A stretch of DNA of 64,000 bases, taken from assembly GCA_937928555.1 (NCBI GenBank), contig CALFWR010000072.1, positions 1-64,000 of the forward strand. The letters run 5' to 3'. Source of the DNA: an uncultured Pirellulaceae bacterium (lineage in GTDB: Bacteria; Planctomycetota; Planctomycetia; Pirellulales; Pirellulaceae). Below, in pieces: positions 15,850 to 47,075 of the stretch; positions within the stretch are counted from its first letter, which is position 1; every line of letters begins with the position of its first letter. The notes below the pieces were generated by a model. The model was not told the DNA's origin and did not search any database. It saw nothing but the letters and a program-made list of their open reading frames with translations. Made by a program: the position numbers and the translations under genes.

Positions 15850-15998
15850 CCGTGGCCTGTTGCTGTAATCGCCGTTGCTGTGATCGTCGACGAAAATTAT
15901 AGCGAGACCCGAGCATTAACCACAGTCCCGACGGTTGGCTCCTGTTGCGCGATGCAGATCGATCTATAATCCGGGTTTGCACTCTTTTCAGGCGCCCG

Positions 15999-17015
15999 AT
16001 GGCTGTCATCGAAATCGACAATTTGTCCAAGTCGTACCGTGTGTACCAGAAAAAAGAAGGAGTTCTGGCATCCCTGAAAGGTCTTTTTCACCGCGAGTAC
16101 AAGGAGATTCATGCCGTTCAGGGAATCGACCTGCGCGTCGAGCGGGGAGAGTTCGTGGCCTTTTTGGGGCCCAATGGTGCCGGCAAAACGACAACGCTGA
16201 AGCTGCTTTCGGGGGTCATCAATCCGACCGGCGGAACGTGCCGCGTGATGGGCTTTGTTCCCTGGGAACGCCAAAACGAATACCGCCGTCGGTTTGCACT
16301 GGTGATGGGGCAAAAGAACCAACTGTGGTGGGATTTACCGGCGATGGAATCCTTTCGCCTGAACCAACACATCTATGGCGTTCCCGCAGAAGAGTTCGAT
16401 CGCACCCGCGACGAGTTGACCGACATGCTGGACGTGACCCGATTGCTGTCGCAGCCAGTCCGCGAGCTTTCGCTTGGCGAACGAATGAAGATGGAGCTGA
16501 TCGCGGCGTTGCTTCACAAGCCCGATGTGCTGTTCCTGGACGAACCGACGATCGGCCTAGACGTCGTGGCTCAGCACAAGATCCAGCAGTTCCTCAAGCA
16601 CTACCAGGAAGAACGCAAAAACACGATCCTGCTGACCAGCCACTACATGAAAGACATCGCGGCACTTTGCAAACGCGTTGTCATCATTGCGGCCGGTTCG
16701 ATCTATCATGACGGATCATTGGAGGAGATTGTCGATCGCTTCAGCAAAGACAAAATCGTGACGTTGCAAATGGAAAAGAAAGAGTCACTCGAAGGCCTGA
16801 AGGATCTTCCCAACGTGATTTCGGTAGAAGCCCCCCGCATCAAGTTCCGCGTCGATCGCGAAGACGTCGGCCAGACGCTTTCTGAAATTCTCAGTATTCA
16901 CGAAGTGGACGACATCGTGGTCGAAGACCCGCCGCTCGAAGAAGTGATCTCCAACGCGTTCTCTGACGCCGAAGCGCAACGCAACGCCGAAAAGATCGCT
17001 CCGACCAATGCGTGA
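15999..17015 (+). CDS. ABC-2 type exporter, ATP-binding subunit
   Basis: A 338-residue ATPase: Walker A GPNGAGKTTTLKLL, a Q-loop in VMGQKNQLWWDL, signature LSLGERMKME and Walker B VLFLDEPTIGLD. A C-terminal extension of about 80 residues follows. The QKNQLWWDLP stretch is typical of the COG4586-type ATPases that work with two membrane proteins of the COG4587/COG3694 type. Such permeases are found at 24137-25863, about 7 kb downstream on the same strand, separated by the radical SAM cluster. The ATG at 15999 gives MAVIEIDNLSKSY, the expected start. The substrate is unknown. Confidence 0.9.
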   Translation: MAVIEIDNLSKSYRVYQKKEGVLASLKGLFHREYKEIHAVQGIDLRVERGEFVAFLGPNGAGKTTTLKLLSGVINPTGGTCRVMGFVPWERQNEYRRRFALVMGQKNQLWWDLPAMESFRLNQHIYGVPAEEFDRTRDELTDMLDVTRLLSQPVRELSLGERMKMELIAALLHKPDVLFLDEPTIGLDVVAQHKIQQFLKHYQEERKNTILLTSHYMKDIAALCKRVVIIAAGSIYHDGSLEEIVDRFSKDKIVTLQMEKKESLEGLKDLPNVISVEAPRIKFRVDREDVGQTLSEILSIHEVDDIVVEDPPLEEVISNAFSDAEAQRNAEKIAPTNA

Positions 17016-17177
17016 CCGCCCGCTAACCCTGGGCAACCTTGTGCCCCAGGGCTTTGGCGCAATCTGGAACGGTGAATCGGTATTCTGCGACGCGGAATCC
17101 GCGCTGACAACGCGCCCGCGATCTGTCGCGGTTGTTCGCAACCGACAGCCGACCGTGCGAGCCAAATGGGTTACCGA

Positions 17178-18041
17178 TCAGGATTCGGTATCCAGTGGAA
17201 TACGCTCCAGAATCGAATCGCCAAACACGGCGTCCATCTTGAGCTCTTTCAGGTGAACGTAACCAATGTGACATCCGCAGGTTGCGTTGGTGCAAAGCCG
17301 CGGTTTAAGGACTTGGTTCAGGTCGTCCACGTACAAGTTACCAATGATCGATTTGATGAAATGGCATCGTCGAATACTGCCGTCGCCATCAACCGAAATC
17401 GTGGTGTGCCCTGTGTTGCATGGCTTGCCATCGCTGGGGTGGCGAAAGTTGTTGACCGGGAACAAAGGATCAATGCCGGTAAACTGTTCGATCAATCCCG
17501 AGTCGTAGTAGTTGGCTTCTCGCTTGAACGCGTTGATCCACAGGTAGACGTTCCGATCAAGCTCTGCACGCAAGGCAACGATCTCATCGCGGTGTTCCTT
17601 CAGTCCCACTGTCCCGACGCTGTAACGGATCTTCATCGCATCCAACTGGCGACACTGGGCAACAAAGTCCGCACGTGAAACTTCGTCGGGGTGATAGGTA
17701 CACCAAAGTGCCAGGGCCTTCCGTTCTGCTTTGTCCAGCCATTGAAGCGGCGCCGAAAGGTTCGTCTGAACCGCAACTCTAACAACGTGCTGCATGTGAC
17801 TGAGCCCAACCATGGCATCGCGATACCAACGCCGCGTCAAGGCTTCGCCCCAAGGCGTGAACAGCACACCAACCTCTCGCTGATCGTTCGCTGCAACCCA
17901 ATCCACAAACCGGTCCAGGCATTCGCGGTCCACACGCAGTTCTGCAGCCGTTTCATGCTTTTTCGCGAAAGGACAATAATGGCAGCGGTAATTGCAGCTC
18001 GACAACGGTCCGCGATACAGAATGTTCAGGCGCTGTCCCAA
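17178..18041 (-). CDS. STM4011-type radical SAM protein
   Basis: A 287-residue radical SAM enzyme. The start region carries the cluster motif LYRGPLSSCNYRCHYCPFAK, with Cys16, Cys20 and Cys23 binding the [4Fe-4S] cluster. A later CNTGHTTISVDGDGSIRRCHF and terminal CGCHIGYVHLKEL add five Cys that could hold an auxiliary cluster. The whole pattern matches my recollection of the STM4011 family; its reaction is unknown. The TTG at 18041 is chosen because GGAGGG lies six bases upstream; a GTG at 18086 is the alternative. It overlaps the end of the STM4012-type gene by 16 bases and is last in a three-gene minus-strand operon. Confidence 0.88.
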   Translation of the reverse strand: MGQRLNILYRGPLSSCNYRCHYCPFAKKHETAAELRVDRECLDRFVDWVAANDQREVGVLFTPWGEALTRRWYRDAMVGLSHMQHVVRVAVQTNLSAPLQWLDKAERKALALWCTYHPDEVSRADFVAQCRQLDAMKIRYSVGTVGLKEHRDEIVALRAELDRNVYLWINAFKREANYYDSGLIEQFTGIDPLFPVNNFRHPSDGKPCNTGHTTISVDGDGSIRRCHFIKSIIGNLYVDDLNQVLKPRLCTNATCGCHIGYVHLKELKMDAVFGDSILERIPLDTES

Positions 18042-19402
18042 GAGTAGCCCTCCATTCTCTGACGAACTTCCGCACCATACAGCCACGGACCAATGGAATC
18101 CGACCAGGCGATTCCTTTTTGCGTCAGCGTCAACCGATCATCGGTCCGCACTGCGAAACCCAACTCCAGCAACTGCGACAACTGCGGAAAATCGTCCAGC
18201 ACACTTTGGCCGAATCGTTGCTGGTACTCCTGTTCGCACATTCCTTCTGTGAGAAACAGCGAAAGAATCAAATGGCGGCGACGGATTTCATTTTCATCCA
18301 ACTCGATCCCAAACTCAACGTTCGCAAGCTCATCCTCAGACTGCCCGACGTAATGCTGCACAATTGCAGAGATCGCCCGCTGACGAACTCCGTACCGGGA
18401 ACCATAGTGCAGTTTGCCAGTATAAGACCGCGATCCACACCCCAGCCCAACCATTGCGTCCTCCTGGCATCGATAGTCCGACTTGTGCGAACTCGACGGC
18501 AAGGGCTTGCGAAACATCCGCATCGAAACCTGCTGGTACCCTCGCTGCAGCAACCGGTCTCGCCCGGCATGATACAAATCCAGACGGTGCCGGTCCTGAA
18601 CCGGTGACGCTTTGCGGCGGCGGGAAAGCCCCGTCAGTTCGCGAACGTAGAGCGGATAGAGATAGACTTCTTCCGGATCACAGTCGATCGTTCGTTCCAC
18701 CGAATCCAGCCACGAGTCGGCAGTCTGCCCGGAAGCGCCGTAAATCAAATCCAGATTCATGATCGGGAAGTCCAGCTTTTTGATCTGCTCGATTGAACCC
18801 ATCACCGTCGCAAGATCCTGTGGCCTTCCCATTGCTCCAACGTCTTTGCCATCGAAACTTTGCACGCCCATGCTCACGCGATCAACGCCAAAATCCTTCA
18901 TCTGTTTTAGCTTTGCCGCATCCACCGTCGCGGGAGACACTTCCATCGAAACCGGCAATCTCTGACCGCTAACACGTAGCACTTCATTCAGCGTCGTAAA
19001 AAGCGATTCCAGCTCCGAGCCATTCAAATAAGTCGGCGTTCCCCCGCCGATCGCGATTTGGCCGAAGCTTGCATCCGGCAACTGCTCGCGCAACACCGTC
19101 GCTTCACGCTGGAACGCAGCCAACCAATCACGAGGTAGATCCGCATCGGGTTGCGAGAGCGTAAACAGGTTACAGAACCCGCAGCGGAACTCACAAAATG
19201 GAACGTGAACGTAGAGAAACAAAGAGTCCTGCGGTTCGTCGCGCCAAACATCCTCAAGTGATCGAGCGGGCAAATTTCGGTACGCCGTCTTGTGCGGATA
19301 CGAGTAACAGTAGCCAACGTACGGCCCTTGCTGCAGAAACGTTTCCAGATCGCGATCGACCCGGTGAGTCACCTGGCTGTTGGGGCTGTTGGGAGCGGTC
19401 AA
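18026..19402 (-). CDS. STM4012-type radical SAM protein (HemN-like)
   Basis: A 458-residue coproporphyrinogen-dehydrogenase-like radical SAM protein. The cluster motif VHVPFCEFRCGFCNLFT has Cys70, Cys74 and Cys77. IAIGGGTPTYLN, MEVSPATVDAAKL and VSMGVQSF are the SAM-binding HemN-type elements. A HemN_C-like C-terminal region ends LTLTQKGIAWSDSIGPWL. The architecture and the flanking partners match the STM4012 family. It is not a haem enzyme by context, and its substrate is unknown. Its ATG overlaps the STM4013-type stop as ATGA, indicating translational coupling. Confidence 0.88.
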   Translation of the reverse strand: MTAPNSPNSQVTHRVDRDLETFLQQGPYVGYCYSYPHKTAYRNLPARSLEDVWRDEPQDSLFLYVHVPFCEFRCGFCNLFTLSQPDADLPRDWLAAFQREATVLREQLPDASFGQIAIGGGTPTYLNGSELESLFTTLNEVLRVSGQRLPVSMEVSPATVDAAKLKQMKDFGVDRVSMGVQSFDGKDVGAMGRPQDLATVMGSIEQIKKLDFPIMNLDLIYGASGQTADSWLDSVERTIDCDPEEVYLYPLYVRELTGLSRRRKASPVQDRHRLDLYHAGRDRLLQRGYQQVSMRMFRKPLPSSSHKSDYRCQEDAMVGLGCGSRSYTGKLHYGSRYGVRQRAISAIVQHYVGQSEDELANVEFGIELDENEIRRRHLILSLFLTEGMCEQEYQQRFGQSVLDDFPQLSQLLELGFAVRTDDRLTLTQKGIAWSDSIGPWLYGAEVRQRMEGYSWDSA

Positions 19403-20232
19403 GTCGCGTCCTCCGAATTTGAACTGCCTGCAACAACAAAATCCGCATAAGGAACATCGCCGATCACCGGATGATTCCAGCGATGGCCGACTCTGCCCTG
19501 TTCGCCGTACGCGGTACCGTGATCGCTACACGCAATCACAAACCACGGATCGCTTCCTGTGATAACAGCAAACAAATTTGCCAGTGCGCCATCGACGACT
19601 GCCAACGCTGCCGCCTGGCTTTCAATAGAATCCTCCGTCGCGCCGGGCAGGTAAAAGTGGTTCGGTTGGTGAAGCGCAGAGAAGTTGATAAAGACAAAAA
19701 GCCGTTGGCCAGGCTTTCGGTCTTGCACGATCTTCATCGCCAACTCGACCTGGTTGGTGGCGGACTGGGGACACGTCACCCCGAGACTTTGTTCCCAGTA
19801 ACTGTGTTGAAAAAGACCCGGCAGCACCTTTCCCAGAGCCGTTGCCTTGTTGAAAAAACCGACGCCGCCAATGCAATGCGTTTGGTAGCCACGATTCGCC
19901 AGACCTTCGACAATGGTTGCTTCTTCGAAAACGCAGGTGTTCTGACCGGTCGTTTCGCTTCCCGGAAACGCCGTCGCAAAAAGCCGCATCTGGTTTTCAG
20001 GGTCGAGCGAGGTTGGCAAAAAGCCCGCGAAAAACGCATGATGGGCCGCGTAGGTAAAATTTGCTGGCGAATGCCGCCGCTCCCAACCGCCAGGACCGAT
20101 TAGCCGCGACAGCGTCGGGGTGCTTCCGGCTTTCGCTGCCCGCTGGGCCACATCAAATCGGAGCGTATCGAAGGTAAGCATCAATACGTCATGCGTCCCG
20201 ATCACTTGGTTCATTGAACGACTTTGGGACAT
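19399..20232 (-). CDS. STM4013-type alkaline-phosphatase-superfamily hydrolase
   Basis: A 277-residue cytoplasmic hydrolase with a sulfatase/phosphatase fold. Metal-binding motifs are VLMLTFDTLRFDVA near the start, the likely Thr nucleophile in SPANFTYAAHHAFFAGF, and the C-terminal ACSDHGTAYGEQGRVGHRW with Asp/His ligands. There is no signal peptide, unlike most true sulfatases. It matches the STM4013/SEN3800 family by motif and context. It is first gene of the minus-strand arm and coupled to the STM4012-type gene. An in-frame ATG at 20214 is an alternative start. Confidence 0.87.
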   Translation of the reverse strand: MSQSRSMNQVIGTHDVLMLTFDTLRFDVAQRAAKAGSTPTLSRLIGPGGWERRHSPANFTYAAHHAFFAGFLPTSLDPENQMRLFATAFPGSETTGQNTCVFEEATIVEGLANRGYQTHCIGGVGFFNKATALGKVLPGLFQHSYWEQSLGVTCPQSATNQVELAMKIVQDRKPGQRLFVFINFSALHQPNHFYLPGATEDSIESQAAALAVVDGALANLFAVITGSDPWFVIACSDHGTAYGEQGRVGHRWNHPVIGDVPYADFVVAGSSNSEDAT

Positions 20233-20277
20233 CGAAAGCTTTTAGCGGACAACGAGCACGAAACGACAGCTTGGATT

Positions 20278-20286
20278 TGATATACT
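20278..20286 (+). promoter_or_regulatory. Candidate extended -10 promoter for the plus-strand arm
   Basis: TGATATACT fits an extended -10 (TGn plus TATACT) in the 89-base divergent space between the STM4013-type gene and the 104-residue protein gene. Initiation would fall about 30 bases before the ATG at 20322. No good -35 is visible. It is a consensus match only. Confidence 0.4.
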
Positions 20287-20321
20287 TTCACCAGCCACAA
20301 TTCAAGGTTGCAAGGTAACAA

Positions 20322-20636
20322 ATGTTGTATCGACACGGCGATGTGCTGGTTCAAAAAGTTGACGAAATCCCCCAGACGGCGAAGAAGGCCAGGCACGTGA
20401 CGTTGGCCGAAGGAGAAGTGACCGGTCACAGCCACCGCATCAAGGAACCCGGTGCCGCCGAGTTGTTCGTGCACAACAAGGGCCGAGCGGACGAACTGAG
20501 GTACCTTTCGGTCAACCATGAAATCGCCACCTTGATCCATCAGGAGCACGGCGCGATCGAATTGCCGGGCGGCATCTACAAGGTTTGGCGGCAACGGGAG
20601 TACACGCCCGAGCGGATCATCACCGTCAGAGATTGA
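20322..20636 (+). CDS. Small conserved protein partnered with the LRR-DUF6745 gene
   Basis: A 104-residue soluble protein, beta-rich by appearance: MLYRHGDVLVQKVDEIP, then LAEGEVTGHSHRI, ATLIHQEHGAIELPGGIY and the end YKVWRQREYTPERI. I recall this compact family (GDVL, GE-TGH-H, EEH, LP-G-Y-V-RQREYTP) lying next to DUF6745 proteins in several phyla; no function is known. The conserved His residues suggest metal or ligand binding, which is inference. It is the first gene of the plus-strand arm and 40 bases before the LRR-DUF6745 gene. Confidence 0.78.
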   Translation: MLYRHGDVLVQKVDEIPQTAKKARHVTLAEGEVTGHSHRIKEPGAAELFVHNKGRADELRYLSVNHEIATLIHQEHGAIELPGGIYKVWRQREYTPERIITVRD

Positions 20637-20676
20637 CTTCCACGAGAACGTTTTCCGCTTTGACAGGAGCTTGAGT

Positions 20677-21627
20677 TTGCCCGCAGACAAAAAAGTTACA
20701 CCCGCCGTTGCCAAAGCAATGATCGCCGAGGGTTCCGCGCCCGATGGACTGGCGGTGTCGGGAACGTTGGACCTTTCGGACCTCGACAAACCGTTTCAGC
20801 TTCCCAGCGGACTCACCTGCTTTGAGCTTATTGCCAGTGGGACGCAGATTGAAAAACTGCCCAATATAAACGTCGAATTCGCCATTACGCTCGACAACTG
20901 CCATCTTCTGACATCGCTTCCGCAAGGGCTCAAAACCGGAACGCTCAGCATTCGCAACTGCGGTTCGCTTACGGCGCTGCCGGAGGGACTGGACGTCTGG
21001 TACCTCGACGCGTCGGGTTGCTCTGCGCTCTCAACGCTTCCCAACACGGGAACCCTTGGCAGGGGCGACGTCAACTTTTCGGGCTGCTCGAACCTGACAC
21101 AATTTCCCAATTCGATGGGGCCCGTTTCCACATTGAACCTCAGTGACTGCTCTGGCATAGTCGGACTGCCGGAGAAACTTCGCATCAACCTATGGATCGA
21201 TATCGGTGGCAGCGGCCTGGTGTCACTGTCAGAATCACAGCGACAAATCGGGCTGCGATGGCGAGGCGTTCCACTGGACTATGAAACCGCGTTTCACCCA
21301 AAATCGATTCGTGTTGAAAAGGTCTTACAAGAAAGCAACACTGAAAAACGTCGTGTGCTGATCGAGCGGATGGGCTACGACCGGTTCATGACCGAAGCCA
21401 AAGCCGAGAGGCTGGACAAAGACACCGACCCCGGAGGCGAGCGCGAACTCCTGAAGGTCAAACTTACAGGCGACGAGGACATGGTTTGCCTTTCGTGCTT
21501 TTGCCCTTCGACGCAGCGGCACTATTTCCTGCGTGTTCCTCCGGCGACCCAAACCTGCCACCAGGCTGCGGCGTGGATGGCGGGCTTTGACGATCCTGCC
21601 AAATACAAACCCGTTATCGAGACTTGA
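20677..21627 (+). CDS. Leucine-rich-repeat protein with DUF6745-like C-terminus
   Basis: About 317 residues. Residues 25-180 are six or so irregular LRR-like repeats of roughly 20 residues with an L-x(2)-C/S-x(2)-L-x(2)-LP pattern (DNCHLLTSLPQGL, RNCGSLTALPEGL, SGCSALSTLPN, SGCSNLTQFPN, SDCSGIVGLPEKL). The C-terminus (about 215-317) has RRVLIERMGYDRFMTEA, HYFLRVPPATQTCHQAAAWM and YKPVIET, which I associate with DUF6745. The TTG at 20677 is seven bases after an AGGAG; a second TTG at 20671 is closer than usual spacing allows. It is cytoplasmic. The role is unknown; the repeats suggest protein-protein binding. Confidence 0.8.
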   Translation: MPADKKVTPAVAKAMIAEGSAPDGLAVSGTLDLSDLDKPFQLPSGLTCFELIASGTQIEKLPNINVEFAITLDNCHLLTSLPQGLKTGTLSIRNCGSLTALPEGLDVWYLDASGCSALSTLPNTGTLGRGDVNFSGCSNLTQFPNSMGPVSTLNLSDCSGIVGLPEKLRINLWIDIGGSGLVSLSESQRQIGLRWRGVPLDYETAFHPKSIRVEKVLQESNTEKRRVLIERMGYDRFMTEAKAERLDKDTDPGGERELLKVKLTGDEDMVCLSCFCPSTQRHYFLRVPPATQTCHQAAAWMAGFDDPAKYKPVIET

Positions 21628-21651
21628 TCAGTTTTTTTAAGGAGACATTTC

Positions 21652-22851
21652 ATGGCAGCCAGAAAGTTTGAATACTCTGACAGCAAGTCCCACAAGTTTT
21701 GGCACATCGAAATATCGGGAAACCTGATCACGACGACTTACGGTCGGATTGGAACCGACGGACAAAGCAAAACCAAAGAACTCGCTGACGATGCGGCAGC
21801 CCAAAAAGAGTACGACAAGCTGATCAAACAAAAGACCAGCAAGGGCTACGAAGAAGTTGGCTCCGGGGCGGACCAGGGCGATTCCGCTGACGGATTGAAG
21901 TCGATGATGTTTTCAACGACCAGCGACGGGAACTTCGAACACCTGAAAACCTTTATCGGCCACCGCGTGATCGATTACAAATCGGAAAAATCGATCAAAA
22001 AAGGAGATCAGGTCTACGCGATTCGAATGTCCTGGGATGACGAAGACGTCAGCTTTGACGAACTGTTCAGCTCCTATCTCCAGTCCGATGGTCCGGCCAA
22101 TACAGTCGGGCTGGTGATCGGCAACTGGTCGCTGGAGGAGCCCACCAATCCCGTCGAGATCGTGAACAAACTGTGCGCCAATAAAGACAAATTCGGAAAG
22201 CTCGTGGCGATCTTTTTCGGCGACATCGAGATGGAAGAGAGCGAAGTTTCTTGGATCGAACAGTGCAGCCTGACGCCGATACTGGATGCATTTCCGAATC
22301 TGGAAATGCTTCGCGTCCGAGGTGCCAACGGCCTTGGATTCCCCAAAGCCAAACACAAAAAACTCAGAGCGTTTGCAATCGAATCAGGCGGCATGGGCAG
22401 TGAACTGGCCAAACAGGTTTGCCAAGCCGATTTCCCCAATCTCGAACATCTGGAACTCTGGCTGGGCACGCCGAACTACGGCGGGGACTGTCGGCCCAAT
22501 GACCTTCAACCGATCCTCGCAGCAAAGGCATTTCCAAAACTGAAGTACCTTGGTTTGCGGAATTCGGAGATTGCGGATGATATCGCCGGTGTGATCGTGA
22601 ACAGTCCTCTGCTGAAGAAACTCGATACGTTCGATCTTTCGCTGGGGACGCTTTCTGATGAAGGCGGCAACGCGCTGCTTTCACTCACCGACAGCATCAA
22701 CCTGAAGCGTTTGAATCTGAATCATCATTTCCTTTCCAATGACATGGTCAAGAAAGTGAAGAAGCTTCCGTTCACCATCAGCGTATCGGACAAACAGGAA
22801 CCCGAGGATTGGGGCGACGGCGAATTCAGGTTCGTGGCAATCAGTGAATAG
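21652..22851 (+). CDS. WGR-domain fusion to an STM4015-type leucine-rich-repeat protein
   Basis: A 399-residue protein. Residues 1-72 are a WGR domain (KFWHIEISGNLITTTYGRIG then TDGQ), with Tyr in place of the eponymous Trp. Residues 95-399 match the STM4015 family: HLKTFIGHRVIDY, an IGNWSLEEP stretch, LVAIFFGDIEMEESEVSWI, LEMLRVRGANGL, AFAIESGGMG, HLELWLGTPNYGGD, LGLRNSEIADDIA, FDLSLGTLSDEGG and the end GEFRFVAISE. A strong AAGGAGA precedes the ATG. It overlaps the ATP-grasp gene by eight bases. The WGR fusion is the notable difference; WGR domains elsewhere (PARP, MolR) bind nucleic acid. Confidence 0.88.
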   Translation: MAARKFEYSDSKSHKFWHIEISGNLITTTYGRIGTDGQSKTKELADDAAAQKEYDKLIKQKTSKGYEEVGSGADQGDSADGLKSMMFSTTSDGNFEHLKTFIGHRVIDYKSEKSIKKGDQVYAIRMSWDDEDVSFDELFSSYLQSDGPANTVGLVIGNWSLEEPTNPVEIVNKLCANKDKFGKLVAIFFGDIEMEESEVSWIEQCSLTPILDAFPNLEMLRVRGANGLGFPKAKHKKLRAFAIESGGMGSELAKQVCQADFPNLEHLELWLGTPNYGGDCRPNDLQPILAAKAFPKLKYLGLRNSEIADDIAGVIVNSPLLKKLDTFDLSLGTLSDEGGNALLSLTDSINLKRLNLNHHFLSNDMVKKVKKLPFTISVSDKQEPEDWGDGEFRFVAISE

Positions 22852-24007
22852 ACGCTGCCTGAAACACATTTTGCTTTGCAATCCGGAGAACCGCCGCGCA
22901 AGCCTGTTTCAGAACGCACTCGCGTCTCAATCGGCCGACCCGGCGGCGGTTGTGTCGTGGCGGGACTATTTACACAGCCCTCGACGGTTAACGGATTTGG
23001 TTGACGACCGATCGAATCAGGTTTTGCGCATCGATTCGCCGGGTGAAAACCATCACGTTGATTGCGAATTGATTGCCCGAGGGGCTCAAGGCCGTGAGAA
23101 TGGGGCAGCATCTGATGTCGCGATCACAGCCAACGAAGCGCGGCAGCTACCGTTTGATCGCGGTAGAATTCGGTATCTTGGGCAGTGGTATCGGGGTTTG
23201 CAGCACGTACTCCTTGAACTGGAAAAGCAATTGCCGTCGTGTCGTTTTTACAACCACCCGGCAGACATCGCGCTGATGTTCGACAAAATCGCCTGCCATG
23301 CGGCATTGCAAGAACTGGGTCTACCGGTGGTAGAGTCCATCGGCGCAGTTGGAAACCTGGCCGAAATTCTCGCAGCGATGGAAGCTCGAAACTGGAAGCG
23401 GGTTTTCATCAAGCCGGCTCACGGTTCGTCGGCATCGGGAGTTATTGCCCTGAAGGTATCTGACACTGGTCTTTCGGCGCTGACCACCGTCGAACTGGAC
23501 AGCGATCCACGGCGTGGCCCGTCTTTTTACAACAACTTGAAATTACGAAACTATTCGAACCATCCGGACGTCCAACAGGTTGTTAACTTTATCTGCCAGC
23601 AACGTGCTTACGTAGAAAAATGGCTTCCCAAGGCGTCACAGGACGGCAGGAACTTTGATCTGCGAGTCATGGTGATTGATGGCCAGGCACGTCATACGGT
23701 CGTCCGCAGCAGCAAACATCCGATCACCAACTTGCATCTCGGGAATCGACGTGGCGACCTGGAGCGACTGGTCCAGCAGATGGGTGAACAAAACTGGCAT
23801 CGCGCGAAACAGGTTGCCGAAGAATCGGTTCGGGTCGTCCCCCGGTCGCACGCTGTGGGCGTGGACCTGTTGCTCTTGCCGGGCAGCTTCGAACCGAAGA
23901 TTGTGGAACTCAACGCCTTCGGCGACCTTTTGCCAAACGTGTTTCATGACGGGCTGGACGTCTGGGAATCGCAGATCGCGACAATGGTTTCTAAGTATCG
24001 CCCGTGA
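22844..24007 (+). CDS. STM4014-type ATP-grasp protein
   Basis: A 387-residue soluble protein starting at a GTG inside the end of the STM4015-type gene (eight-base overlap). The N-terminal pre-ATP-grasp region includes VVSWRDYLHSP and LRIDSPGENHHVDCELIARG, a motif I associate with STM4014. ATP-grasp elements are FDKIACHAAL, the nucleotide-binding VFIKPAHGSSASGVIAL, NFDLRVMVIDG and the metal-binding end VELNAFGDLLPN. It should form an amide or thioester-type bond on an unknown carboxylate using ATP. It is last gene of the plus-strand arm; the ABC permease genes follow after 129 bases. Confidence 0.87.
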   Translation: MNRRCLKHILLCNPENRRASLFQNALASQSADPAAVVSWRDYLHSPRRLTDLVDDRSNQVLRIDSPGENHHVDCELIARGAQGRENGAASDVAITANEARQLPFDRGRIRYLGQWYRGLQHVLLELEKQLPSCRFYNHPADIALMFDKIACHAALQELGLPVVESIGAVGNLAEILAAMEARNWKRVFIKPAHGSSASGVIALKVSDTGLSALTTVELDSDPRRGPSFYNNLKLRNYSNHPDVQQVVNFICQQRAYVEKWLPKASQDGRNFDLRVMVIDGQARHTVVRSSKHPITNLHLGNRRGDLERLVQQMGEQNWHRAKQVAEESVRVVPRSHAVGVDLLLLPGSFEPKIVELNAFGDLLPNVFHDGLDVWESQIATMVSKYRP

Positions 24008-24136
24008 GCCGTTGGCCGTGCCGGAACGTGCAAAGTCGCTCCAAATCGGGTGATCAGCTTCACGACCGCGTCAGTGGCATTGTATTTTCCCGGGTTCAGC
24101 CAACAATCCTGCTCTGAACTTTGCCCAAGACAATCG

Positions 24137-25012
24137 ATGAGCACTGCCACTACACAACCAGAAACCAGGCTTTCACTCTCCCGACGCGGTCGTGTGTGGT
24201 GGACTTTTTTTCAGGTCGCCATCAATGAACGCTTGGTCTATCGCGGCGATTTCATGATCGGGACGCTGATGCGATTCCTGCCGACGTTGACGCAGATCTT
24301 TCTCTGGTGGGCAATTTACGACGTGGTGGCGAACAAAGGATCAAATTCGATTGCCAGCTATCGCTACGGTGACATGGTGGCCTATTACCTGATGGTCACA
24401 ATCAGCCGGGCGTTTTCCAGCATGCCAGGACTGACTCGGGGAATCGCCACCCAGGTTCGTAGCGGCGAAATCAAAAAGTTTCTCATTCAGCCAATCGACA
24501 TGGTGGGTTGCCTGCTGGTCCAGCGCGTCGCGCACAAACTGGTTTACTACCTGATCGCCACGCTACCGTTTGCGTTGGTGTTTTTCCTCTGTCGGCAGTT
24601 TTTCATCGAAGGCTGGCCTTCGGGCGAAGTGTTGCTGGTGTTTTTCGCCTCGCTGGTTCTGGCGTTTTTGCTGGGCTTCTTTTTGGAAGCCGCCATCGGG
24701 ATGGTGTCGTTCTGGTTCCTGGAAGTAACCGCCCTGACGTTCATCTACATGCTGATGAGCTTTTTTCTCTCGGGGCACATGTTTCCGCTTGAACTGCTGC
24801 CCGAATCGCCGGTGAATGTTCGAGCGATCGTCGAGTTTTTTCCGTTCAAGTACCTGGCCTATTTTCCTGCTGCGGTCTTTTTGGGGAAAGTCGAAGGCGC
24901 CGACCTGTATCGCGGCCTGGCGATTGAAACCGCGTGGGTGGTGTTCTTCATCGTGCTTACCCGGGTGATGTGGTGGCGTGGCGTGAAGCGGTACAGCGGT
25001 TACGGAGGATAA
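24137..25012 (+). CDS. ABC-2 type exporter, permease subunit 1
   Basis: A 291-residue membrane protein with about six transmembrane helices and a cytoplasmic N-terminus (TFFQVAINERLVYRGDFMIG). The short conserved loop RSGEIKKFLIQPIDM resembles the coupling loop of COG4587-type (ABC2_membrane_6) permeases. It ends nine bases before the second permease ATG, so the two are co-translated. The ATG at 24137 is chosen over an upstream frame start at 24050 that would add 29 non-conserved residues. It probably works with the ATPase at 15999-17015. Confidence 0.85.
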   Translation: MSTATTQPETRLSLSRRGRVWWTFFQVAINERLVYRGDFMIGTLMRFLPTLTQIFLWWAIYDVVANKGSNSIASYRYGDMVAYYLMVTISRAFSSMPGLTRGIATQVRSGEIKKFLIQPIDMVGCLLVQRVAHKLVYYLIATLPFALVFFLCRQFFIEGWPSGEVLLVFFASLVLAFLLGFFLEAAIGMVSFWFLEVTALTFIYMLMSFFLSGHMFPLELLPESPVNVRAIVEFFPFKYLAYFPAAVFLGKVEGADLYRGLAIETAWVVFFIVLTRVMWWRGVKRYSGYGG

Positions 25013-25020
25013 CGCCAACG

Positions 25021-25863
25021 ATGCACTCGCCGTCCTACTTGAAAGTCTTCCTCACGTTCGCCCGCAATTCGCTGGTCCGCGACATGTCGTTCCGGCTGAA
25101 CTTTATTTTGCAGTGCCTCTCGTCGCTGTCGTGGGCGATGATGAACTTCCTGCTGTTCAAAATCATCTACCAGCACACCGAATCGATCGGCAACGGAACC
25201 GGCTGGTTCGAGAACGAGTTCTTTGTGTTTCTGGGAACGATCTGGATCATCAATTCCTTTATCCAGACGTTTTTTATGCTCAACGCGGAAGAGTTTTCGG
25301 AACTGATCCGCACCGGCAACCTCGACTTTGCCTTGCTCAAGCCAATCGACACGCAGTTTTTGGTGTCTTTCCCAAAAGTCAACTGGGCGCAGATCCCCAA
25401 CGGCCTGCTGGGTCTGGGGCTGGTGATCTATTCCGTTGGCCAGCTAATGACAACACGAGGCATTTCGATTGGTCCGTGGGAGATTTTCCTGTACGGATTC
25501 TTTTTGCTGTGCGGCGTGGCGGTGATGTACAGCGTGATGATTATCCTTGCATCGACCAGCATTTGGCTGGGACGCAACCAGAACCTGTACACATTCTGGT
25601 TCTACATTACGAACTTTTACCGCTACCCGATGGAGATCTATCAGCGCAGTGGAATCGGGATGGCGCTCTGGGGCACGTTTACGTTTGTGGTACCGATCCT
25701 GGTGGTCTCCAACGTCCCAGCCCGGGTGTTGGCTCAGCCGCTCGAAAGGGGATGGTTTCACTGGCAGTCGGCGTACGCGATCGTTGCCGCGGTGGGTTCG
25801 GTGATGGCCAGCCGCTGGGTCTTCAAGAAGGCACTGCTCAGCTACCGCAGCGCGAGTTCTTAG
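25021..25863 (+). CDS. ABC-2 type exporter, permease subunit 2
   Basis: A 280-residue membrane protein with about six helices. It starts MHSPSYLKVFLTFARNSL and contains the loop ELIRTGNLDFALLKPIDTQF, equivalent to the RSGEIKKFLIQPID loop of subunit 1. It ends RWVFKKALLSYRSASS, the C-terminal pattern of COG3694-type permeases. It would form a heterodimer with subunit 1. An in-frame start at 24934 lies within the previous gene and is rejected. Confidence 0.85.
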   Translation: MHSPSYLKVFLTFARNSLVRDMSFRLNFILQCLSSLSWAMMNFLLFKIIYQHTESIGNGTGWFENEFFVFLGTIWIINSFIQTFFMLNAEEFSELIRTGNLDFALLKPIDTQFLVSFPKVNWAQIPNGLLGLGLVIYSVGQLMTTRGISIGPWEIFLYGFFLLCGVAVMYSVMIILASTSIWLGRNQNLYTFWFYITNFYRYPMEIYQRSGIGMALWGTFTFVVPILVVSNVPARVLAQPLERGWFHWQSAYAIVAAVGSVMASRWVFKKALLSYRSASS

Positions 25864-26409
25864 TCCGCAGAGCCACCCTTGCGATAAACATCACCTTCCT
25901 TACCTCCGAGAGGGCCGAGAGGGTGTTCAGGGGTATTCAGAGCGTTCTCTTTGTCGTGAGAAGATTCGCATTCGCAACCGTTTTGGGGTGGCATGAGCGG
26001 GGGTGAAGCCGGCGTGGGCTTGACCTAAATTCCGGATCTGCGGGTATTCAGGGATAGAAGGCTTTCCAACTGTCCGGCTGTACTGATGTCCGATTACCGG
26101 TTGGATTAGCTTGCAAATTGCGTCGAAAAGTTCCGAGTAAGCCCAATTCCAGCGGATGCCATGCAGTGGGTCTGTCCCTCACGGCGGGACCGCAAACTTG
26201 CTTTGGCGTTGTTTTCGAGCAAAATTGGTTGAAAACGCGGGCGAAAAAGTGGGATTCGAGGCTGGCAAGTTATACTGCATTGACGAACTCTGCTGGTGGG
26301 AGAAAGTCTCGGGTCTCAAAATGGCCCGGCGTTCACCCGTTGAGGACACAACTGGATCACACTACGCGATAACTCGCCTGATTGGGCAATCGACACGGAG
26401 CTACACACG
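25864..26409 (+). other. Non-coding stretch between the permease operon and the HTH protein
   Basis: About 546 bases with short open frames in several frames but none with coding character or an RBS. No tRNA, terminator with T-run or repeat copy was found. It probably contains the promoter of the acidic HTH protein gene, which I cannot place. Confidence 0.5.
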
Positions 26410-27969
26410 ATGTCAAAACTGATTCCGATGGAACAAGCCGCCACCATGTTGGGCATGTCTGTGGACAAGCTGAACGAGCTGCGGACGAACCAGGAAATCT
26501 TTGGATACAAAGACGGGGGAACCTGGAAGTTCAAAGTCACCGAGCTTGAACGCGTCGCCGACACCATGGGAATCTCGCTTGGCGGGGCCGGAGAGATGGC
26601 CGGAGGCGTAATGGACAAAGCCAAAGGTCTTGCAGATGACTTTGGGTTGGAGTTGGGCGATTCCGAAGAACTGCTGATCGATGACGATTCCAGCAGCGAC
26701 TCTCTCGAACTGGACATCGAAGATTCTTCGGTTGAGCTTCTTCAAAGCGGCCGCAAGCCGAGCTCGGACATTCTTGGCGGCGATGACGTAGGCGTCACCC
26801 TTGAAGACAGTGGGATCGTGGGCAACGGGACGTCCAAGGATCTGGCCGCCGAGGACGATCTGGTGATTGACAGCGGATCGATCAAACTTAGTGACAGTGG
26901 TTCTCTCAAGCTCAGCGACAGCGGCGAGTTACTTGCCGATTTAGGGGAGAGTGCAAAAATCAAAGCCGGCGACAGCGCGTTGGATCTTGGCGAAAGCGGC
27001 GAATTGAACCTCAGCGGGTCCGGCGTGCTCGATGACGACGACGAACAGCTTTCGTTCGGCACCAGCGACATTAACCTGGCGTCCGATAGCAGCAAGAAAC
27101 TCACCGGCAACGATACCGGTTCGGACGTCCTGGACGAAGACATTGAAAAGAAAGAAAACTCTTCGGACACCGGCAAGATGCTGGGCGAAAGCAACGATGA
27201 CGACCTGCTGTTGGCCGAAGACGACTTGTTCGACGACGACCTGATCCTTCAGGACAGCGCTTCCTTCGAAGACAGCTCCGACCTTGGCAGCGATTTTGAG
27301 GAAAGTGATCTGATCCTGGAAGACAGCGACTCCAGCTCCGAGCTGGCCCTGGAAGCCAACAAAAGCGGCATTTCGCTCAGCCCCAACGAAAGCGGAATCT
27401 CGCTGGGCGATGAACCGCTGGAACTGGGCGGTTCAGACATCGACGAACTGGAGCTTCCCGAGGGCGATGACATGATCATCCTCGAAGACGCTGCCGATCC
27501 CGACGCCGCGACCATGATGCCTGAAGATGACTTCAACCTGACGCCGCTGGAGCAATCGCTCGACGGCGAAGATTCAAGCTCGTCGTCTCAGGTGATCGCA
27601 CTAGAAGATTCCGAGATCTACGCGGATGAGTCTTCGGCAACGATTCTTGGTGACAGCGTCGGCGACTTTGGGGCTCAACCGGCTCTGGTCGATGACGGCA
27701 TGGGATTTCAGCAAGGTGGCTACGATGACGGAGGCGCTTTGATCGCTCCGGGCATGGACCCCGGCATGCAAGGTACCGCTCCTGCGGGTCCAGCAGAGGC
27801 ACCTTATACGCTCTGGAACATTATCAGCTTGGCCGTCTGTGCGTTGATTCTTGGTCTGGCGACCTTGCTGACGTATGACATGTGTCGCAACATGTGGATT
27901 GGCGATCAGGCCGTTGTTTCCAGCGGACCCCTGAACATCCTGATCGACGCATTGGGAATGAAGAACTGA
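26410..27969 (+). CDS. HTH-domain protein with long acidic repeat region and C-terminal membrane anchor
   Basis: A 519-residue protein. Residues 1-55 form an excisionase/MerR-like winged HTH (MEQAATMLGMSVDKLNELR, then FGYKDGGTWKFKVTELERVA). Residues 75-440 are low complexity and very acidic, with repeated motifs such as LSDSGSLKLSDSGELLADLG, ESGISLGDEPLELGGS and runs of Asp/Ser. A single transmembrane helix lies at about 475-497 (IISLAVCALILGLATLL), followed by YDMCRNMWI. This matches planctomycete proteins with an N-terminal HTH and C-terminal anchor. The role may be membrane-tethered regulation or assembly; this is inference. Confidence 0.82.
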   Translation: MSKLIPMEQAATMLGMSVDKLNELRTNQEIFGYKDGGTWKFKVTELERVADTMGISLGGAGEMAGGVMDKAKGLADDFGLELGDSEELLIDDDSSSDSLELDIEDSSVELLQSGRKPSSDILGGDDVGVTLEDSGIVGNGTSKDLAAEDDLVIDSGSIKLSDSGSLKLSDSGELLADLGESAKIKAGDSALDLGESGELNLSGSGVLDDDDEQLSFGTSDINLASDSSKKLTGNDTGSDVLDEDIEKKENSSDTGKMLGESNDDDLLLAEDDLFDDDLILQDSASFEDSSDLGSDFEESDLILEDSDSSSELALEANKSGISLSPNESGISLGDEPLELGGSDIDELELPEGDDMIILEDAADPDAATMMPEDDFNLTPLEQSLDGEDSSSSSQVIALEDSEIYADESSATILGDSVGDFGAQPALVDDGMGFQQGGYDDGGALIAPGMDPGMQGTAPAGPAEAPYTLWNIISLAVCALILGLATLLTYDMCRNMWIGDQAVVSSGPLNILIDALGMKN

Positions 27970-44819: not shown

Positions 44820-44985
44820 AACGCACAGCCAGCCAGATCCAACGGATATAGAAATTCGTGAACTCAGCGGATAAACTAAAATCTGTTATTTGGCAAATCA
44901 CCGCTGTATTGAGCGTCCGACGGCAACAACGGCAGGCTTTGGATGTGCGTCAGCCCGCATGGGCGGCCTCAAAACTGGAGAATTC

Positions 44986-45954
44986 ATGTCTCAACTCCCA
45001 ATCGTCAACCCCTCGGAAGAATCTCCGTCCGCTGGCAGCAGCGGTGGCGGAGGTGCCTGCGGCGGAGCAAGCTTTCCCGATCAGGCCGAAATGAGCCCCA
45101 CCGGTCGCCTGCCGAAATGGCTTAAACGCCAGGTCCCCAAAGGCAACCACGTCAACCATACCGCCAAACTTCTGGACGAACTTCGACTGGAGACAGTCTG
45201 CGACAACGCCCGCTGCCCCAACCGAATGGAGTGCTACTCCCAGCAAACCGCGACGTTTATGGTCTTGGGCAACACCTGCACGAGGCCCTGCGGTTTTTGT
45301 GCCGTCAAACGCGGACGCCCCGAAGCCCTCGAATTGGACGAACCGCAGCGCCTCGCCGAAGCCGCCGTTCGACTTGGGCTCAAACACGTGGTCATCACAT
45401 CGGTGACCCGCGATGACCTGCCCGATGGCGGCGCCGAGCACTTCTATCAATGCATCAAAGCCGTCCGCGAGAGATGCGATGCGTCTGTCGAAGTCCTCAC
45501 GCCGGACTTTCTCAACAATCCTGAGGCACTGATGCGGGTCGTCGAAGCCAAACCCGAGGTCTTCAATCACAACACCGAAACCGTACCGAGACTTTACCGC
45601 CGTGTCCGCGGCCCAAAAAGCGATTACAAATGGACCCTGGAAATGCTTCGTCTGGTCAAGCAAGCCGATCCCGAAATTCGCACCAAAAGCGGCCTGATGC
45701 TGGGGCTGGGCGAGACCCGTGACGAGCTTCTCGATGTGCTGGCGGATCTGCGTGGAATCGACTGCGATTTTTTGACCCTCGGCCAGTATCTTCAACCGTC
45801 CACCGACCGCTATTTGCCGGTAGTTCGCTACGTAACTCCGGAAGAATTTGACGAACTGGGCCAATCCGCCAAAATGCTTGGGTTCCGCAAAGTTGCCAGC
45901 GGGCCGTTTGTGCGAAGCAGCTTCCACGCCCGCGACATGGTTGAAAACGGCTAA
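44986..45954 (+). CDS. lipA: Lipoyl synthase LipA
   Basis: Radical SAM enzyme inserting two sulfur atoms into the octanoyl group of lipoyl domains. From the ATG at 44986 (CTGGAG site just before it) the protein is 322 residues. It has a Gly/Ser-rich N-terminal tail, then the auxiliary-cluster Cys motif CDNARCPNRMEC, the radical SAM motif CTRPCGFCAVKRG and the C-terminal SSFHARDM with the Ser of the auxiliary cluster. thiS begins five bases after its stop, so lipA, thiS and thiG probably form one unit joining lipoate and thiamin sulfur chemistry. Confidence 0.96.
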   Translation: MSQLPIVNPSEESPSAGSSGGGGACGGASFPDQAEMSPTGRLPKWLKRQVPKGNHVNHTAKLLDELRLETVCDNARCPNRMECYSQQTATFMVLGNTCTRPCGFCAVKRGRPEALELDEPQRLAEAAVRLGLKHVVITSVTRDDLPDGGAEHFYQCIKAVRERCDASVEVLTPDFLNNPEALMRVVEAKPEVFNHNTETVPRLYRRVRGPKSDYKWTLEMLRLVKQADPEIRTKSGLMLGLGETRDELLDVLADLRGIDCDFLTLGQYLQPSTDRYLPVVRYVTPEEFDELGQSAKMLGFRKVASGPFVRSSFHARDMVENG

Positions 45955-46211: not shown

Positions 46212-47075
46212 ATGCCCCAAACGAAGCCCAATTTGCAAACCGCGCAAACCGTTCCAGACCAAAGCCTGACGATCGGAACCCATGTGCTCAACAGCCGCCT
46301 GATTCTCGGAACAGGCCTGTTTGACTCATTCGAAACCATGCAGGCAGCCATCGACGCCAGCGGCACAAACTGCGTGACCATCGCAATTCGCCGCGAAAGG
46401 CTCAACGATAGCGACACCCGGAACATTCTTGATTTTATTGATCACCAAAAAATCACCCTCCTTCCCAACACCGCCGGCAGCTACGACGCAACCACCGCAG
46501 TTCGCTACGCTCGCATGGGTCGCGCGATCCTCGAAAATCTGGAGAACCCCGGCCACAACTGGGTCAAACTCGAAGTGCTCGGAGACACCCGAACACTGCT
46601 GCCGGACCCCTTCGAACTCTTAAAAGCCACGGAAACCTTGGCCTCCGAGGGTTTCGAAGTTCTCTGCTACTCCAATGACGACCCTGTTGTGGCTCGTCGC
46701 CTAAAAGATGCCGGTGCCACCGCCGTTATGCCCGCCGGGAGTCCCATCGGGTCGGGCCTTGGACTGGTCAACCAGAACGCCCATCGCCTGATCATTGCCG
46801 ACCTCAAACGTAATGACCCGGATTATCCGGTAATTCTTGATGCCGGAGTGGGAACAGCAAGCGATGCTACCATTGCCATGGAAATCGGTTTTGACGCTGT
46901 GCTACTCAACAGTGCAGTCGCACATGCCCAATCGCCGATTACAATGTCGTCTGCCATGAAATTTTCTGTAATAGCAGGTAAGCTGGCCGCGGATGCCGGA
47001 CGAATGGTCAAATCCCCCTATGGAGCTGCGAGCACTCCCGAGATTGGGGTCATTTCCGACCATAAACCCAGTTAA
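46212..47075 (+). CDS. thiG: Thiazole synthase ThiG
   Basis: Forms the thiazole phosphate of thiamin from deoxyxylulose phosphate, ThiS thiocarboxylate and dehydroglycine. The 287 residues contain the TIM-barrel family motifs SRLILGTGLFDSFE, LLPNTAGSY, NWVKLEVLGD (Schiff-base Lys), the C-terminal PVILDAGVGTASDATIAMEI and VLLNSAVAHA. It is last in the lipA-thiS-thiG unit. Confidence 0.95.
   Translation: MPQTKPNLQTAQTVPDQSLTIGTHVLNSRLILGTGLFDSFETMQAAIDASGTNCVTIAIRRERLNDSDTRNILDFIDHQKITLLPNTAGSYDATTAVRYARMGRAILENLENPGHNWVKLEVLGDTRTLLPDPFELLKATETLASEGFEVLCYSNDDPVVARRLKDAGATAVMPAGSPIGSGLGLVNQNAHRLIIADLKRNDPDYPVILDAGVGTASDATIAMEIGFDAVLLNSAVAHAQSPITMSSAMKFSVIAGKLAADAGRMVKSPYGAASTPEIGVISDHKPS

Follow-up and report, generated by a model that had tools for sequence, protein, structure and literature searches.

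A conserved C-terminal tail on the leucine-rich repeat protein of the widespread STM4011–STM4015 gene cluster

The closest described systems to the gene cluster considered here are those in which a radical S-adenosylmethionine (SAM) enzyme of the SPASM/twitch type acts on a peptide, PqqE on PqqA in the pyrroloquinoline quinone (PQQ) pathway and MftC on MftA in the mycofactocin pathway, and in both of them the precursor is a short peptide. A further point of comparison is the ATP-grasp ligase RimK, which acts at a C-terminal site of ribosomal protein S6. According to two published accounts, a single radical SAM enzyme of mycofactocin maturation decarboxylates a tyrosine and bridges it to the neighbouring valine (PMC8326336), and RimK adds residues to the protein RpsF (PMC10092738). 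The families STM4011 to STM4015 (NCBIfam NF038073, NF006067, NF038075, NF038074 and NF038076) carry names without a function. STM4013 and STM4015 are listed in published tables, STM4013 in one of sigma-54 binding sites, and neither a function nor a study of the STM4011–STM4015 system was found in the open-access literature, whose coverage is itself incomplete. Here we describe a cluster of these five genes at positions 17178–24007 of a 64,000-nucleotide stretch of DNA from an uncultured Pirellulaceae bacterium (contig CALFWR010000072.1; the whole stretch is called the window), and propose that its leucine-rich repeat (LRR) protein, STM4015, may itself be the substrate of the enzymes encoded beside it.

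The initial annotation, made from the letters of the window, had assigned the five proteins to these families and described two divergent, tightly coupled arms. Each protein scores above the curated NCBIfam cut-off of its family in a profile search (Table 1), and the open frames and both arms are as the annotation gave them. The gene order within the arms, 4013-4012-4011 and 4015-4014, is common to the window and the Salmonella STM4011–STM4015 (SEN3800) families, whereas in the window the two arms diverge, a WGR domain is fused to STM4015, and the genes of a protein here called HSH and of an LRR protein with a DUF6745 domain lie between the arms. Three observations are new: the 104-residue HSH gene before the LRR-DUF6745 gene, which the annotation did not describe, the conserved tail of STM4015, and the position of the cluster, which parts an ABC ATPase gene from its permease.

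The C-terminal tail of STM4015

STM4015 copies that ended in a stop codon and reached 120 bits or more with the profile were taken from the window, the plasmid clusters, the 80 loci introduced below and ten loci of the window's phylum, giving 126 copies, or 118 once Janthinobacterium was reduced to one. Counted back from the stop, position −1 is Glu in 114 of the 118, −2 is Ser, Gly or Ala in 98, −3 is Val in 95, −4 is Ala in 82, −5 is Val, Ile or Cys in 91, −6 is Tyr or Phe in 110 and −7 is Arg in 92; the preceding positions, −8 to −15, are mainly acidic and of low conservation. The tail Tyr precedes Val or Ile in most copies, a likeness to mycofactocin.

In the loci examined, the tail is restricted to this family. 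A regular expression describing it matched 100 of 22,376 open reading frames (ORFs) in the cluster loci, every match being an STM4015 gene, and 4 of 17,655 ORFs in the other loci, three of these being the STM4015 ends of cluster genomes (L013, L017 and L018) and one unrelated. Among the STM4015 loci of cluster genomes of the phylum (eight genes already among the 118 and three new), 10 of 11 matched, and the eleventh, ending in ...WRPILHAE, retains the terminal Glu. The LRR-relative loci of cluster-less genomes of the phylum gave no match (0 of 18, one of them cut before its end, or 0 of 17 with the end visible). The terminal Glu is not forced by the overlap of the gene with its neighbour, since 54 of the 57 STM4015 copies whose stop is unable to overlap a start in the form xxA-TGA have Glu at the end nonetheless, and the remaining four proteins of the cluster share no common last residue.

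More than one STM4015 profile match was found in 25 of the 70 loci having STM4015, with a maximum of six (a few may be fragments), and STM4011 to STM4014 are single-copy in nearly all loci; the copy number of STM4015 thus points to a substrate-like role. The identity within 54 within-locus paralogue pairs is 58% in the body, 15% in the linker and 70% in the tail, the tail exceeding the body in 40 of the 54; these pairs were drawn from Glu-ending copies only, which biases them slightly toward the tail. The corresponding values for 300 random inter-locus pairs are 42, 15.5 and 62%. Tandem copies, two to six in number, are seen at L042, L049, L089 and L098, the six being those of Actinomadura rifamycini (L098).

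Motifs of such a length at the C-terminus often serve as signals, and the tail might merely direct degradation or bind a partner, the enzymes acting on an unrelated host target. We regard this as very improbable, given that in the material examined the tail is confined to the STM4015 of cluster genomes and that STM4015 co-occurs near-constantly with the enzymes. The initial annotation had allowed for a peptide, a protein or an LRR-bound small molecule as the modified species; because the C-terminal tail of STM4015 is conserved, the LRR protein itself now appears the favoured target among them.

The enzymes and a proposed modification of the tail

STM4011 contains a CX3CX2C motif (C31, C35, C38) together with C223, C241, C265, C270 and C272, in columns at least 97% conserved among 83 sequences. 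This cysteine pattern is SPASM/twitch-like; the Pfam SPASM model gives no match, and Radical_SAM scores 20.9 against a cut-off of 29.5. The next-best families, the peptide maturase PapB and the anaerobic sulfatase maturase, both stay far below their cut-offs. In STM4012, the columns of the CX3CX2C and GGGTP motifs are likewise at least 97% conserved (88 sequences), and the protein falls below the cut-offs of HemW (155 against 205 bits), HemN (148 against 325) and HutW (134 against 400).

STM4013 is a member of the alkaline-phosphatase superfamily (PF00884, 32.4 against 25 bits), and its best-scoring solved relatives are the NPP (nucleotide pyrophosphatase/phosphodiesterase) phosphodiesterases, and in an alignment its first Asp, its Thr and its Asp-His pair match those of NPP. 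T60 stands at the nucleophile position, and D22, D237 and H238 are presumably metal residues; all four are invariant in 8 aligned sequences. Sulfatases have the motif Cys-x-Pro-x-Arg, their formylglycine motif placing a Cys or Ser at the nucleophile position. STM4013, of about 270 residues, lacks Cys-x-Pro-x-Arg and has neither Cys nor Ser but Thr60 at that position, and it was rejected as a sulfatase. Phosphoryl chemistry is more likely for it than sulfate hydrolysis, because NPP enzymes are its best solved relatives and a Thr occupies the nucleophile position.

STM4014 has K, E, N and D residues that are conserved in 79 sequences. Like RimK it is an ATP-grasp protein, its proposed substrate being the LRR protein, but only the YheC/D-like Pfam model passes; the weak matches to MptN/RimK-type glutamate ligases are far below cut-offs, and a RimK-type ligase was rejected at 24.9 bits against the RimK-family cut-off of 143.4.

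Conserved short ORFs beside the cluster, which the initial annotation had proposed as something to look for, were sought by clustering the unassigned ORFs of at least 30 residues lying up to 6 kb from the core at 91 loci, with a 50-bit threshold, below which weakly conserved short peptides would fall; HSH had been set aside by profile before clustering. One such family exists, HSH beside DUF6745, and none is of the classical precursor type: among the clusters listed, no short ORF except HSH is conserved in three or more groups. Nor does HSH resemble a classical precursor peptide, since it is predicted to be a folded beta protein and its pairing with DUF6745 is shared with phages. The other recurrent clusters were frame shadows, near-identical Janthinobacterium flanks, the HAD gene described below, a HAD of the Cof type, and kinases and transporters of generic appearance. 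Two generic-looking transporter clusters, of ABC ATPases in 10 groups and of MFS proteins in 6, recur near the core without being constant, and no protease cluster recurs there among the clusters listed. No recurrent candidate for a precursor-recognition protein was seen near the core, no search having been aimed at such domains.

Because a single enzyme set accompanies one to six LRR proteins sharing a free C-terminal heptapeptide on an acidic linker, we moderately favour the interpretation of the cluster as a system resembling those of ribosomally synthesized and post-translationally modified peptides (RiPPs), in which the LRR protein would carry the peptide modified by the radical SAM enzymes and the ATP-grasp ligase. 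The weak family matches of STM4011 and STM4014 and the conservation of their motif residues agree with this interpretation. STM4015 would be both carrier and substrate, with the LRR part as leader and the tail as core, and an acidic, probably flexible linker would present the seven-residue tail R-[Y/F]-V-A-[V/I]-[S/G/A]-E-COOH. STM4011 would most likely oxidise or crosslink the tail, the Tyr/Phe being the prime target, and STM4014 would most likely activate the terminal Glu carboxylate and couple it to an amine or amino acid. STM4012 might supply a second radical step, for example a methylation or decarboxylation, and STM4013 might act on a phosphorylated donor or intermediate. The product would probably remain on the LRR protein inside the cell, since no recurrent protease and no constant transporter or exporter is found near the core; genes for proteolytic release and export are usual, though not universal, in RiPP systems. 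The families, their conserved motifs and co-occurrence, the tail and its confinement to STM4015, the copy number and the insertion are observed; the tail as substrate, the order of the steps and all of the chemistry are inferred, and the particular chemistry is held with less confidence than the substrate role of the tail. Unlike in PQQ and mycofactocin, the tail is borne by an LRR protein of about 300 residues and is accompanied by an ATP-grasp protein, a second radical SAM enzyme and a phosphodiesterase-fold protein.

A more specific version of this scheme is advanced only tentatively. In it, which would amount to a new class of ribosomal modification, folded LRR paralogues, up to six per cluster, would each present a C-terminal R-Y-V-A-V-S-E core, and the two radical SAM enzymes, the ATP-grasp ligase and the Thr-nucleophile phosphodiesterase would convert it to a cofactor or reactive group that stays permanently bound to the protein; the LRR body would act as a leader that also chooses the partner, and the phage-shared HSH/DUF6745 pair would have been recruited as an accessory. 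If the RiPP-like interpretation is true, a new protein-bound cofactor or radical chemistry could emerge, and the tail yields a precise and cheap prediction, as it specifies which residues of which protein to inspect by mass spectrometry.

Several observations weigh against the modification of the tail. Four of the 118 copies lack the terminal Glu and 18 miss a stricter tail pattern, and the Salmonella STM4015, whose cluster has all five genes, ends in NAMYTE, with the Glu retained and the other tail residues mostly different. A conserved C-terminus may equally serve docking or degradation. The tail match does not correlate with the score of any of the four enzymes (Spearman coefficients between −0.20 and −0.07 over 81 loci, p between 0.07 and 0.53), so that there is no sign of enzyme-tail co-divergence, which was ruled out as support. 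At L280, one of the 18 LRR-relative loci of cluster-less genomes, in a genome without STM4013, a decayed STM4015 fragment has its frame stopped just ahead of the tail, and it is no evidence of tail loss because the profile match continues about six codons beyond the stop. Of 14 genomes with incomplete loci that were searched, 3 (a KSB3 bacterium, an Anaerolineae metagenome-assembled genome (MAG) and a Chloroflexi MAG) have STM4013 but neither STM4011 nor STM4014. Finally, an ORF of one family lies directly upstream of STM4013 (−18 to +54 bases) in 10 loci of about seven groups (L066:4741–5457 and L102:9204–10001 among them), namely two Schlesneria, three Myxococcus, and Comamonas, Motilimonas, Desulfobacterales, Planctomycetales and Rhodocyclaceae members. 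The two of these ORFs that were scanned are HAD hydrolases weakly related to nucleotidase-type families, and the window has no HAD gene before STM4013. The HAD gene and STM4013 together hint at a phosphorylated small molecule.

In a different reading, the enzymes would make a metabolite and STM4015 would be its scaffold or receptor, the tail being a docking signal for an enzyme or for the product. The kinship of STM4013 with nucleotide pyrophosphatase/phosphodiesterases, the upstream HAD gene in those 10 loci and the HemN-like nature of STM4012 all agree with such a small-molecule pathway. However, the HAD gene aside, no biosynthesis gene recurs across groups, unless the generic-looking ABC ATPase and MFS clusters count, and docking alone leaves unexplained a near-invariant free Glu beside an ATP-grasp ligase, as well as the several tailed paralogues. 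We consider it rather unlikely.

Spread of the core and the HSH/DUF6745 pair

The cluster occurs widely. When genome contigs were scanned with an STM4013 alignment, at least 591 stretches came up, at least 574 of them holding relatives of STM4013; the 80 best were retained as loci and searched with profiles from the window and the plasmid clusters, matches above 40 bits being counted. These 80 come from cyanobacteria, actinobacteria, proteobacteria, myxobacteria, chloroflexi, planctomycetes and others; plasmid copies of the cluster are found in Deinococcus, Paenibacillus and Salmonella. STM4012 is present in 74, STM4011 in 72, STM4015 in 70 and STM4014 in 68 of the 80 loci. All five families lie inside the stored DNA in 64, so the cluster is not a chance grouping, and of the 14 genomes searched for the 16 incomplete loci, 11 hold both STM4011 and STM4014 above cut-off somewhere in the genome. 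The constant partnership of the five genes, for which the initial annotation had proposed a survey of gene neighbourhoods across phyla, is thereby supported. In 63 loci all five exceed 120 bits; the genes follow the Salmonella order along a single strand in 53 of these, and in 10 they are split like those of the window. Over 74 loci, the correlation between the enzymes' four distance matrices is 0.71–0.90, as expected for genes inherited together. STM4013 stands without core neighbours at L046, L056, L092, L100 and L120, which are two actinobacterial plasmid stretches and three MAGs, the MAGs having no match for STM4011 or STM4014. The DNA of the Salmonella cluster gave no megablast match in a collection of 5,426 E. 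coli genomes.

In the window's phylum, STM4013 is above cut-off in 13 of 392 genomes and STM4015 in 10, all of them among the 13. Two further STM4013 genomes (G118 and G181) have lower-scoring or truncated STM4015 copies, and none was found in the thirteenth (G282, 54% complete). Outside the 13, the 392 genomes yielded one partial STM4015 match (G044, 102 bits), the others being low-scoring LRR proteins. Divergent STM4013-like proteins (126–138 bits, below cut-off) occur in four members of the phylum (L218–L221) with no core genes in the fetched DNA; at L221 the gene adjoins a glycosyltransferase fused to a radical SAM/SPASM domain.

The HSH/DUF6745 pair is an optional accessory module that occurs also without the core. 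The two genes are found together in 27 of the 80 loci and neither was seen singly. In three Deinococcus clusters, as well as in clusters of Methylobacterium and Streptomyces, relatives of HSH adjoin DUF6745 genes. DUF6745 is present in 15 of the 392 genomes of the phylum, five of them among the 13 with STM4013 (about 0.5 expected), and in four of these five it is close to the core. The pair without the core is found on plasmid stretches of Skermanella and Deinococcus ficus and in Microcystis phage LMM01, as gp175/gp174 (L050:4968–6499). On viral contigs, a profile detects DUF6745 in 54 of 80 HSH loci, and the DNA of the remaining 26 ends 1.2 kb or less from HSH; no constant third partner was found in the viral loci (L138–L217). 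The LMM01 pair adjoins a uracil-DNA glycosylase gene, with a DNA polymerase gene nearby.

The HSH alignment contains the motifs RxGDVL, LAxGExTGHxH, HxEH and QxEY, and the last residue is Asp in all 37 non-viral and all 79 viral copies. Its AlphaFold model is all beta, with a mean predicted local distance difference test (pLDDT) of 93.3; that of the LRR-DUF6745 protein has a mean of 94.2. Foldseek searches of the PDB gave no match at an E-value of 0.001 or better for either model, the best for LRR-DUF6745 being weak LRR matches. By sequence, no solved relative was found for HSH, and only chance-level ones for DUF6745 and STM4011.

The presence of HSH/DUF6745 in phages also bears on a role in conflict or defence, in which diversified LRR proteins would recognise an invader and the pair would be its target or a regulator. 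The patchy spread of the cluster, its recent insertion in the window (see below), the WGR fusion and the paralogous LRR copies would fit such a role. It nevertheless seems improbable, as the PADLOC matches are weak and partial (PDC-M51A, 27 bits, for STM4012; WGR_XIII, 19.5, for the WGR part of STM4015; a viperin model, 15, for STM4011), and 53 of the 80 loci, some of which are truncated where their contig ends, showed no HSH/DUF6745 close to the core. A known defence system was rejected, with no strong PADLOC-DB match for the six window proteins scanned, HSH being excluded from the scan.

Layout and insertion of the cluster in the window

The features of the locus are collected in Table 1. 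The STM4013 and STM4012 genes overlap by 4 bases (19399–19402) and STM4015 and STM4014 by 8 (22844–22851). The start of STM4011 is likely the TTG at 18041, from which its overlap of 16 bases with STM4012 is counted; the frame is open to 18086. An Rfam scan of 15900–26100 found no structural RNA match at gathering score.

Table 1. Genes and features of the STM4011–STM4015 locus and its flanks in the window
Feature	Position	Strand	Basis
STM4011-family radical SAM enzyme	17178–18041	−	NF038073, 402 bits (cut-off 200)
STM4012-family HemN-like radical SAM enzyme	18026–19402	−	NF006067, 539 bits (cut-off 380); Pfam Radical_SAM and HemN_C
STM4013-family hydrolase, alkaline-phosphatase superfamily	19399–20232	−	NF038075, 387 bits (cut-off 250)
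HSH, conserved 104-residue protein, partner of DUF6745	20322–20636	+	Alignments; co-occurrence; structure model
LRR protein with C-terminal DUF6745	20671–21627	+	PF20530, 75 bits (cut-off 27)
STM4015-family LRR protein with N-terminal WGR (residues 7–71); proposed carrier and substrate	21652–22851	+	NF038076, 315 bits (cut-off 275); WGR, 70 bits (cut-off 22)
STM4015 tail RFVAISE, preceded by acidic linker DKQEPEDWGDGEF; proposed modification site	22828–22848	+	Translation; conservation; restriction to STM4015; codon control
STM4014-family ATP-grasp ligase (YheC/D-like)	22844–24007	+	NF038074, 378 bits (cut-off 175); PF14398, 30.5 bits (cut-off 26.8)
ABC-transporter ATPase, flank outside the system	15945–17015	+	Pfam; adjoins permease in relatives
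ABC2_membrane_6 permease, flank outside the system	24050–25012	+	Pfam; DNA comparison with relatives

The cluster is a fairly recent insertion, since the ABC ATPase and the permease between which it stands adjoin each other in genus-mates and STM4013 is above cut-off in 1 of 28 genus genomes, the window's own. The permease is present in 19 of 20 genomes searched, the window's own included, and in 16 of the 18 others, among them 11 of 11 genus-mates, the ATPase lies within its 1.5-kb flank; in ten measured genus-mates the gap between the two matches is −37 to 199 bases. The similarity to the DNA of relatives stops near 16975 and restarts only near 24197, so the true start of the permease may be later than 24050. 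Composition does not mark the insert (G+C 53–56% inside, 53–57% around it). Among the clusters compared, those of other planctomycetes are closest to it, with an identity of about 50% and low tree support.

Elsewhere in the window, positions 26410–27969 encode a 519-residue protein with an HTH_17 match just below cut-off, in which long acidic repeats rich in Ser and Asp are followed by a hydrophobic stretch close to the end, and a lipoyl synthase gene adjoins that of the thiazole synthase ThiG (44890–45954 and 46212–47075).

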